The notes under the pieces were generated by a model. It worked only from the letters and a program-made list of their open reading frames with translations. It was not told where the DNA came from and made no database searches. Shown piece after piece: positions 13,812 through 63,194 of a stretch of DNA of 64,000 nt. Position 1 is the first letter of the stretch, and every line of letters starts with the position of its first letter. A program made the translations under genes and the position numbers. Origin of the DNA: Saprospira grandis str. Lewin (GTDB lineage: Bacteria > Bacteroidota > Bacteroidia > Chitinophagales > Saprospiraceae); contig NC_016940.1 in assembly GCF_000250635.1 (NCBI RefSeq), positions 2,914,501-2,978,500 on the forward strand, written 5' to 3'.

Positions 13812-14060
13812 CCAGATTAGGTCCCAATGAGCCAGCTTTTAGCGGTCCCATGGCTTGCAGCTTAAAAGCCGCAAGACCTAAAAACCGAATGCTTTCGTCG
13901 ATCTTCAATGAAGCAGGGGCTTTTAAGCTCCTGCGGCGAGAAAGATAATGGCCCAAGCAGATTGTCTGCGGCCTTTTAGCTGCAGAAACAGTGATTTTTA
14001 CCCCAATTGTTAGGGTATTGTTAAAAATGAAAATAATGTAACAAAATCAAAAAAGGCAAA

Positions 14061-14360
14061 AGTTCGGTATTTTACCGAACTAGTTCACCTCCAGACCGAA
14101 CTAGTTCACCTCCAGACCGAAGCAGTTCACCTCCAGACCGAACTAGTTCACCTCCAGACCGAACTAGTTCACCTCCAGACCGAACTAGTTCACCTCCAGA
14201 CCGAACTAGTTCACCTCCAGACCGAACTAGTTTACCTCCAGACCGAAGCAGTTCACCTCCAGACCGAAGCAGTTCACCTCCAGACCGAACTAGTTCACCT
14301 CCAGACCGAACTAGTTCACCTCCAGACCGAAGCAGTTCACCTCCAGACCGAACTGATTTA
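14061..14360. repeat. 21-bp tandem array, 13 units plus a partial, with an opening hairpin
   Basis: Thirteen contiguous units of exactly 21 bp (14074-14346) and 14 bp of a further unit. The consensus is ACCGAACTAGTTCACCTCCA plus G. Ten... units carry GAACTAGTTC or its GTTT variant, a ten-base palindrome; units 3, 9, 10 and 13 carry GAAGCAGTTC, which breaks it. The array opens with hairpin AGTTCGGTA / TACCGAACT (14061-14081). There are no spacers, so it is not CRISPR. One plus-strand frame reads ELVHLQT repeatedly but has no ATG, GTG or TTG before the upstream stop. Confidence 0.9.
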
Positions 14361-14452
14361 CTAAACGCTAAAATGAAGAGAGGGACGGTTCAGAATTTTG
14401 TGTATTAGAATAAAATTTGGGCCTTTAGCTTGTTAGGATTTGGCCAGTAGTC

Positions 14453-14617
14453 GCCTAGGGACAAGCCCCTAGGCTAACCCAATGGAGTCAGCCCTAAAGG
14501 GCCTCAAAGGCTCATATACACGGCCTTGCTAAGTAGTTATTGCAGATAAGGTCCTTATCCAAAGGCCCTCTTTAGAGGGCTGTCTGAAAAAGCTAGCCTA
14601 GGGGCTTGTCCCTAGGC
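14453..14617. mobile_element. MITE-like element with 25-bp terminal inverted repeats, copy 1
   Basis: The left end GCCTAGGGACAAGCCCCTAG plus GCTAA (14453-14477) is matched by its reverse complement at 14593-14617 with one change. Inside are two more hairpins, GCCC/GGGC and GCCCTC/GAGGGC. Length is 165 bp and there is no coding capacity. Two further copies lie at 62595-62756 and 62949-63115. Non-autonomous mobility is inferred from the ends; no transposase is in the window and target duplications were not established. Confidence 0.7.
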
Positions 14618-14651
14618 AGCAAAAAGGAGAAACACAAAATTTTAAACAGAC

Positions 14652-14730
14652 TCGAATAAAATTTGGGCCTTTAGCTTAGCTTGCAAAAGTAGGATTTGGC
14701 CAATCATTGCCTAGGAGGCGCAGGAAAGGG
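14652..14730. repeat. Flank duplicate with an apparent deletion scar of the 165-bp element
   Basis: 14652-14704 repeats the sequence that precedes copy 1 (AATAAAATTTGGGCCTTTAG at 14409 and again near 14655). It is followed by ATTGCCTAGGAGGCGCAGGA, where the left tip GCCTAGG is joined to AGGCGCAGGAAAGG, the right flank seen after copies 2 and 3. This looks like an element reduced to its two tips. Confidence 0.6.
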
Positions 14731-14770
14731 GCGCAGACAAAATTTCAAACAGCGCCTTTTATGCGTGTAG

Positions 14771-24002: not shown

Positions 24003-24129
24003 ATCGATCTGTTTTTTTGTAGTTTTTTTTAGTTAGAACTTTGTCTATATGCTATTTATGGCGAAAACTGGATTATTGTTACCTCTTTAGTCGGACTTTT
24101 TCTAAAAAAAGTAACTCTTCTGCTAAATG

Positions 24130-24486
24130 GAGCTAGCAGAAAGTTAGCTGGAGCTAATGAAAACCTAGGTCGAGCTAGTCGAAAGTTAGGTGGAGCTAAT
24201 GAAAACCTAGGTCGAGCTAGTCGAAAGTTAGGTCGAGCTAATGAGCGCCTAGCTCGAGCAAGTGGGAAGTTAGGTGGAGCTAATGAAAACCTAGGTCGAG
24301 CTAGTCGAAAGTTAGGTGGAGCTAATGAAAACCTAGGTCGAGCTAGTCGAAAGTTAGGTCGAGCTAACAAAAACCTAGCTCGAGCAAGTAGGAAGTTAGG
24401 TCGAGCTAATGAAAACCTAAGTCGAGCTAGTGGGAAGTTAGGTCGAGCTAATAAAAACCTAGCTCGAGCTAGCAAAAAGTTAGCTC
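24130..24486. repeat. 21-bp tandem array, 17 units, two alternating unit types
   Basis: Seventeen contiguous 21-bp units, each beginning GAGCTA or GAGCAA. Two types alternate: GAGCTAGTCGAAAGTTAGGT and GAGCTAATGAAAACCTAGGT, each plus one base. In one plus-strand frame they read A-S-R-K-L-G-G and A-N-E-N-L-G-R, placing Leu and Ala at coiled-coil a and d positions. That frame is open from 24033 to about 24560 but has no ATG, GTG or TTG start. The minus strand also has an open frame of 139 codons, starting with ATG inside the array. Coding status is unresolved. Confidence 0.9.
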
Positions 24487-24586
24487 ATGGAGGTTTTCTA
24501 TTAAGTTCAGTTAGTCTGTACTTTAACAAAAGTCTAACAAATCACCTAAGCCTCTGCCCCTAGACCGTAGAAAGAGCTACATTTAG

Positions 24587-62520: not shown

Positions 62521-62594
62521 TGCTACTTATGGCTTAGGGGCTTGGCCCTAGGGTAAATGGATGTAGAGGAGTAAAACAGGAGCAGCCAATCATC

Positions 62595-62756
62595 GCCTAG
62601 GGACAAGCCCCTAGGTTAATCTAATGGGGTCAGCCCTAAAGGGCCTCAACTGCTAAATAAGGCTTGGCTCAATCATTATAGCAAAGAAGGGCCTGAACCA
62701 AAGGCCCTCTTTAGAGGGCTGTCTAAAAAAGTTAGCCTAGGGGCTTGTCCCTAGGC
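62595..62756. mobile_element. MITE-like element with 25-bp terminal inverted repeats, copy 2
   Basis: Left end GCCTAGGGACAAGCCCCTAG plus GTTAA and right end at 62732-62756 are inverted repeats (one change). Internal GCCC/GGGC and GCCCTC/GAGGGC hairpins match copy 1. It is part of a longer direct repeat with copy 3: GATGTAGAGGAGTAAAA before and GCAGGAAAGGGCTGTGGGTT after. Confidence 0.7.
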
Positions 62757-62876
62757 GCAGGAAAGGGCTGTGGGTTTCCCCCATAATTAAAAAAGGTAGG
62801 GTGTTTTAGCTAATTGATTATAGCTAGGGAGCAATTGTTTTTCTTTGCACATCAGGTTGTTGCTGGGGTAAACAGA

Positions 62877-62902
62877 AAATCCCCTCGGATGAGGGGATGC
62901 TG
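62877..62902. terminator. Terminator-like hairpin between repeat copies
   Basis: Stem ATCCCCTC / GAGGGGAT with loop GGAT, flanked by AAAA and a nearby TTTT. No gene next to it is a clear client. Confidence 0.45.
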
Positions 62903-62948
62903 TTTTGGGGGTAGATGTAGAGGAGTAAAAAAGGAGCGGCTAATCATC

Positions 62949-63115
62949 GCCTAGGGACAAGCCCCCAGGCTAATCCAATGGGGGCAGCCCTGACAAGGGC
63001 CTCAAATACTAAAATATAGGGCTTGGCTTAATCATTACAGCAAAGAAGGACCTGAATCAAAGGCCCTCTTTAGAGGGCTGTCTGAAAAAGTTAGCCTAGG
63101 GGCTTGTCCCTAGGC
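62949..63115. mobile_element. MITE-like element with 25-bp terminal inverted repeats, copy 3
   Basis: Left end GCCTAGGGACAAGCCCCCAG plus GCTAA (one change) and right end 63091-63115. Central part is the same as copy 2 with scattered substitutions. The direct repeat including flanks spans about 62912-63140 against 62558-62781, so the second probably arose by duplication of a segment rather than an independent insertion. Confidence 0.7.
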
Positions 63116-63194
63116 GCAGGAAAGGGCTGTGGGTTTCAACCCAGAGGTATTATAATTTCTAACAATTAAAGCAAGTGTGTGGCCAATAGGGATG

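Follow-up and report, generated by a model that had tools for sequence, protein, structure and literature searches.

The repeat that begins at position 14453 of the window (the whole 64,000-nucleotide stretch of DNA analysed here) is best explained, with a probability of about 0.83, as the inner part of a non-autonomous IS256-family MITE with an unstable palindrome section. The window, G000:C1:2914501-2978500, belongs to a Saprospira grandis genome (G000; 4,400,185 bases, two contigs), whose source we take to be a cultivated predatory bacterium. The MITE family shares its ends with a full insertion sequence (IS) of the same genome, carries 8-bp duplications in part of its members, has empty sites in another genome of the species, and occurs as nested insertions and in long and short forms. 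From the sequences, we infer that the MITE is mobilised in trans: the IS transposase would act on the outer 22-bp repeats common to MITE and IS, and insertion would make an 8-bp target duplication. Two inverted hairpin palindromes bracket a self-complementary interior, and this section would be unstable, such that deletion between short direct repeats in the palindromes would turn the element into a 129-bp form with a single palindrome, and additional loss would leave stubs such as the "scar" described below.

The window copy lies within a 272-bp MITE

A preliminary description of the window had reported three copies of a 165-bp MITE-like element with near-perfect 25-bp inverted ends and two internal hairpins. 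The copies lie where it placed them, at 14453-14617, 62595-62756, and 62949-63115; in the first, 24 of the 25 end bases match as inverted repeats, and the two internal hairpins are present and can also pair with each other. We rejected the 25-bp repeats as transposon ends, as the flanks align past them and finish in another inverted repeat. In an alignment of 53 paired copies, many share flanks beyond the palindromes that end in this outer repeat, and in the window the 22-bp outer terminal repeats bound a MITE of 272 bp with the following parts.

14382..14653, plus strand: whole 272-bp MITE of the long form, made up of a 71-bp left arm, a 22-bp palindrome, a 121-bp interior, a second 22-bp palindrome, and a 36-bp right arm
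14382..14403, plus strand: outer terminal inverted repeat of the type at the right end of the IS, differing from GGGACTGTTCAGGATTTTGTGT at 2 positions
14453..14474, plus strand: inner palindrome 1, 22 nt, self-pairing
14475..14595, plus strand: MITE interior with the two small, mutually pairing hairpins
14596..14617, minus strand: inner palindrome 2, loop inverted
14632..14653, minus strand: outer terminal inverted repeat of the type at the left end of the IS, differing from GAGACTGTTTAAAATTTTGTGT at 1 position

The 25-bp repeats lie 71 and 36 bp inward of the true MITE ends and are internal palindromes; each contains a 22-nt hairpin with an 8-bp stem and a 6-nt loop. The suggestion that the spreading unit is larger than the inverted-repeat part proved right, the unit of the first copy being 14382-14653. 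The MITE-like character also held, on the strength of IS-shared outer ends, 8-bp duplications in some family members, and an empty site; the placement of the element's ends at the 25-bp repeats did not. No ORF of at least 80 amino acids overlaps 14382-14653, and the window MITE is short and non-coding. An exact 8-bp duplication is absent at this MITE; its left duplication would have gone with the end of an older MITE next to it.

Several other repeats are present. A 21-bp minisatellite of the CCGAACTAGTTCACCTCCAGA type occupies window 14011-14424, and similar arrays adjoin some other MITEs; a different minisatellite stands at the orthologous place in G061, a genome of the same species. Direct repeats in 21-bp steps at window 24081-24542 (15 registers of 168 nt) overlap the mechanical ORF 24056-24475, and GC-rich repeats of, for example, the GGGCCGAGCGARYAGCGAGC and GGTCTGGCC types occur at many places in window 1040-62480, in both orientations and up to 131 nt long. 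A second palindrome, GCCTAGGGCCTTGGCCCTAGGG, has a CCCCTCGAATGAGGGG-like hairpin close upstream (L107 2330-2351, L102 1620-1641, and L105 1611-1632).

An IS256-family insertion sequence shares the outer ends

The outer ends of the MITE are the ends of a full IS256-family insertion sequence in the same genome, a transposase-bearing element of the sort that the preliminary description had proposed to look for. Elsewhere in the genome, outer ends flank a 403-aa transposase in pairs spaced by about 1.36 kb. G000 contains nine full copies of this IS (1358-1359 bp) and one copy split by a MITE, with seven intact 403-aa transposase frames. The transposase scores 399.7 bits against the IS256 model NF033543 (cut-off, 150) and 364 bits against Pfam PF00872 (cut-off, 21). 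IS256-family elements duplicate 8 to 9 bp of their target, and exact 8-bp duplications flank seven of the nine full copies. Among the matches listed, the nearest protein relatives of the transposase are 55% identical in genome_contigs and 44.8% in plasmids; the plasmid collection, searched with the MITE, gave no match.

DNA and protein searches found the IS in one of six genus genomes and in none of the five others, G061 among them, of which G062 and G064 are fragmented (90 and 63% complete). Sites of the outer-end motif number 52 in G000 (a count that takes in the IS copies), 23 in G061, 29 in G057, and 15 in G063, and 0 in G062 and in G064. The presence of outer ends in G061, G057, and G063 with no detected transposase relative counts against our explanation: the mover there would be either gone or one that these searches did not pick up. 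A query of window 14400-14660 matched 2 of 61 genomes sampled from the taxonomic family, G000 and G057, both of this genus.

MITE insertions are polymorphic and have empty sites

Exact 8-bp duplications flank 6 of the 37 TIR-delimited small elements of up to 300 bp (a set that includes two overlapping duplicates), and 0.19 would be expected from shuffled flanks of the same elements (375 exact duplications in 74,000 pairs). The remaining 31, the window copy among them, have no exact duplication, a point against our explanation. Of 23 rows for elements sampled in relatives (two nested alternatives among them), 3 have exact duplications; it is therefore probable that the family moved in those genomes as well.

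The preliminary description had also proposed looking for empty sites and target duplications in related strains, and both exist, the duplications in part of the family. G061 has the empty site of IS 1685712, AAGATAAG, and that of MITE 1684907, CAGATAGT. Because its right end is partly doubled, MITE 1684907 is not one of the six elements with exact duplications. MITE 3486254 sits inside an IS transposase gene and has an exact duplication, and a duplication inside a palindrome, GACAAGCC, is common to two insertions at different loci of two strains. Long MITEs occupy the same locus in G061 at 2491035, 2979117, and 2987298 and are shortened there at 1478626 and 1571231; those at 2928882 (the window copy), 1684907, 1880212, and 2517928, and probably that at 1749899, are absent from their G061 loci. 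MITE insertions are therefore polymorphic between these genomes, with empty sites.

The family has long and short forms with constrained palindromes

The 22-nt palindrome has 100 forward and 107 reverse sites at up to three mismatches in the whole of G000, where a reversed-pattern control gave 0 and 0 sites. Core and MITE counts refer to fetched G000 stretches (296,938 bases when merged), picked by a match to the MITE, the palindrome, or the outer end among the matches listed; these hold 169 palindrome matches at up to four mismatches. TIR-delimited elements in the fetched stretches take a long form (27 elements of 255-290 bp, 25 of which carry both palindromes with at most one mismatch) and a short form of 129 bp (8 copies, with one palindrome each).

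Mean divergence from the consensus is lowest in the palindromes (0.035 and 0.020), followed by the outer ends (0.056 and 0.059), the left arm (0.133), and the core middle (0.159). The sample, 27 long elements, was chosen by outer ends and length; because this choice favours the outer ends, the palindromes are at least as constrained as those ends. Simple decay of a MITE predicts otherwise, and the low divergence of the inner palindromes is a further point against our explanation. Compensatory changes numbered 0 in 38 pairs across 54 distinct sequences (core 1374458 was left out beforehand), a set in which nearly all pairs are invariant, so that little was tested.

The "scar" and probable collapse at the palindromes

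The odd join noted beside the window copy is present as described, at 14709-14729, and is the sole match in the genome when up to three mismatches are allowed. It lies in the remains of another MITE.

14654..14756, plus strand: older short MITE with its left end missing, hit by the MITE 14382-14653; single palindrome reduced to 11 nt
14709..14719, plus strand: "scar" GCCTAGGAGGC

The sequence to the right of the long MITE, GAATAAAA, is left-arm sequence of the older MITE, so the 272-bp MITE probably jumped into the short one. The left part of the older MITE would then have been lost, perhaps by recombination between two like left ends. At the orthologous locus, G061 carries one short MITE (128 bp) whose only palindrome is whole and lacks the long MITE, G063 has no MITE, and G057 has an end-like remnant and no MITE at up to four mismatches. 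Relative to G061, the scar palindrome is missing 11 nt. The last change at the scar was probably the removal of these 11 nt from one palindrome rather than the disappearance of a 165-bp element; the idea that the join is the empty site of such an element therefore probably does not apply here, while loss between palindromes is suggested at three other loci (below). We also considered that the scar preserves an ancestral, palindrome-free state of the MITE rather than a collapsed palindrome. The right end of the IS carries CTAGGAGGCG at the corresponding place, like the scar, and the scar unit and the G061 MITE differ in the type of their right arms (AGCAAAAGAGG versus GCAGGAAAGGG), which makes simple descent of the scar unit from the G061 form uncertain. 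An ancestral scar is nonetheless unlikely, given the whole palindrome at the orthologous G061 locus and the single palindrome in each of the eight 129-bp MITEs of the fetched stretches.

Comparisons at three other loci suggest collapse between palindromes. At 1478626, a MITE that is long in G000 is shortened in G061, with a nearly identical right junction and a different left flank. At 1571231, the left junction is shared and the rest is missing in G061, the deletion reaching beyond the MITE. At 2016458, a MITE that is short in G000 is long in G057, with orthology on one side only. The differing left flank, the larger deletion, and this one-sided orthology count against our explanation. We did not count 1981548, where the long MITE of G057 lies about 95 bp from the short one of G000 and G061 and is perhaps a separate insertion. 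Once oriented alike, the lone palindromes of the eight short MITEs comprise five of type 1 and three of type 2, the kind of mixture that deletion through one or the other of two short direct repeats should produce. Change would run from long to short.

Cores also occur outside MITEs

The two remaining copies of the preliminary description are cores (palindrome-interior-palindrome) of a group we call class C.

62595..62756, plus strand: core copy, class C, without outer MITE ends
62949..63115, plus strand: second core copy, class C, without outer MITE ends

G000 has 58 paired cores: 24 with both MITE flanks, 12 with one flank, 12 of class B (left flank GC-rich, or TTAGTCCCTCAAC present in the right flank), 5 of class C, 2 beside a Y1 gene, and 3 others. 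That 22 of the 58 lie outside recognisable MITE flanks weighs against our explanation. A second MITE family behind the class B cores was rejected: in the stretches examined, GTTGAGGGACTAATATT lacks an inverted counterpart within 1.5 kb. In a tree of 89 cores (row G61_3435000_28596 dropped), whose bootstrap had not settled, class C forms one clade (100/98), the two Y1-side cores group together (100/74), and MITE cores are spread throughout. Cores without outer ends are probably descendants of MITE cores that would have lost their ends or been copied along with neighbouring repeats.

Both 62-kb cores occupy the place where G061 and G063 carry a Y1 gene in arrays of other hairpins. This second hairpin family, of the GGTTTYAACC type (window 62555-63180; L088; L083), surrounds the Y1 gene in G061 and G063, and the Y1 gene of this locus has seemingly been lost from G000.

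Alternative explanations

The paired palindromes of the core stand in inverted orientation, as in a REPIN or BIME, and the core could accordingly be a pair of REP palindromes moved by a RAYT-type Y1 transposase and hitch-hiking in the MITE. The same core is found in several flank contexts, and the sole Y1 match of G000, an IS200-like gene (L092 2155-2616 = G000:C1:3525154-3525615) between hsdR- and hsdM-like genes (named by eye from their reading frames), has palindrome arrays on both sides. G061, however, has neither the Y1 gene nor the array at this locus and yet has at least 25 full matches to the 165-base core query; the missing Y1 gene makes a RAYT mover unlikely. We examined 9 of 11 Y1 loci in five other genus genomes and found palindromes at up to two mismatches in the examined flanks of 0 of the 9, with a degenerate palindrome (3 to 5 mismatches) at 4. 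For the G000 Y1 protein, the RAYT model gives 17.3 bits (cut-off, 80) and the IS200 model 55.6 bits (cut-off, 55), and all four Y1 proteins searched with the RAYT model fall far below its cut-off, leaving no cognate RAYT among them. The Y1-side cores, with a third core, also form one small clade within the tree of MITE cores. Together, these results make a RAYT mover improbable. A conserved structural RNA or regulatory DNA element under selection would account for palindromes that lie 2.0 and 3.5% from the consensus when the core middle lies at 15.9% (27 elements), and convergent ORFs enclose 14 of the 31 elements that have an ORF on each side, a count that includes an overlapping duplicate and rests on crude ORF calls. 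Against this stand a core with no Rfam match at gathering scores and the 0 compensatory changes in 38 pairs. The preliminary description had named conserved positions with no empty sites as the pattern pointing to such an element; G061 has empty sites, and positions are polymorphic. We consider this explanation highly improbable.

The IS256-family MITE remains our preferred reading, and a tentative extension of it is less likely true than not: a resident MITE population, which in related strains was left with no transposase, may have been re-mobilised in this strain by a recently arrived or revived IS256-family element, with the inner palindromes kept by a function in transposition, target choice, or transcription protection while the rest drifts. 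An intact IS, long, short, and collapsed MITEs, and relatives with MITE ends and no detected IS form a natural set-up for studying whether a new transposase wakes dormant MITEs, and the same set-up bears on whether a MITE needs the palindromes inside it. The system also points to a route by which REP-like palindromes could arise, as the remains of a MITE.

Comparison with known systems

Elements of this kind are already known, and the S. grandis repeat is a new example. We found no report of it in literature on Saprospira repeats, genome, IS, and MITE, on IS256 MITEs, and on RAYT/REPIN, judged by titles and abstract openings with incomplete coverage. The S. grandis system has the transposase family, terminal repeats, and 8-bp duplications of IS256-family insertion sequences. 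Cardinium belongs to the same phylum as Saprospira grandis. Its MITECca01, a MITE of about 240 bp, is likewise derived from a resident IS, of the IS982 family rather than IS256 as in S. grandis (PMC9769881). MITEPsy1 of Pseudomonas syringae (100 nt, ISPsy2-like ends, 4-nt duplication), whose movement was shown by trapping, also has ends like those of a resident IS; the cited passages describe no paired palindromes (PMC3189936). In the IS256 family itself, ISRm5 is associated with REP palindromes in five of seven copies; there the IS is associated with REPs, whereas in S. grandis the palindromes lie inside MITEs with IS ends (PMC1525189). QMITE2 of Coxiella burnetii, a MITE of 150-190 bp, resembles the S. 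grandis element in carrying a REP palindrome into which another element inserts; the cited passages name no parent IS for it, whereas S. grandis has an IS with the same ends and a palindrome that is paired and inverted (PMC5896051).
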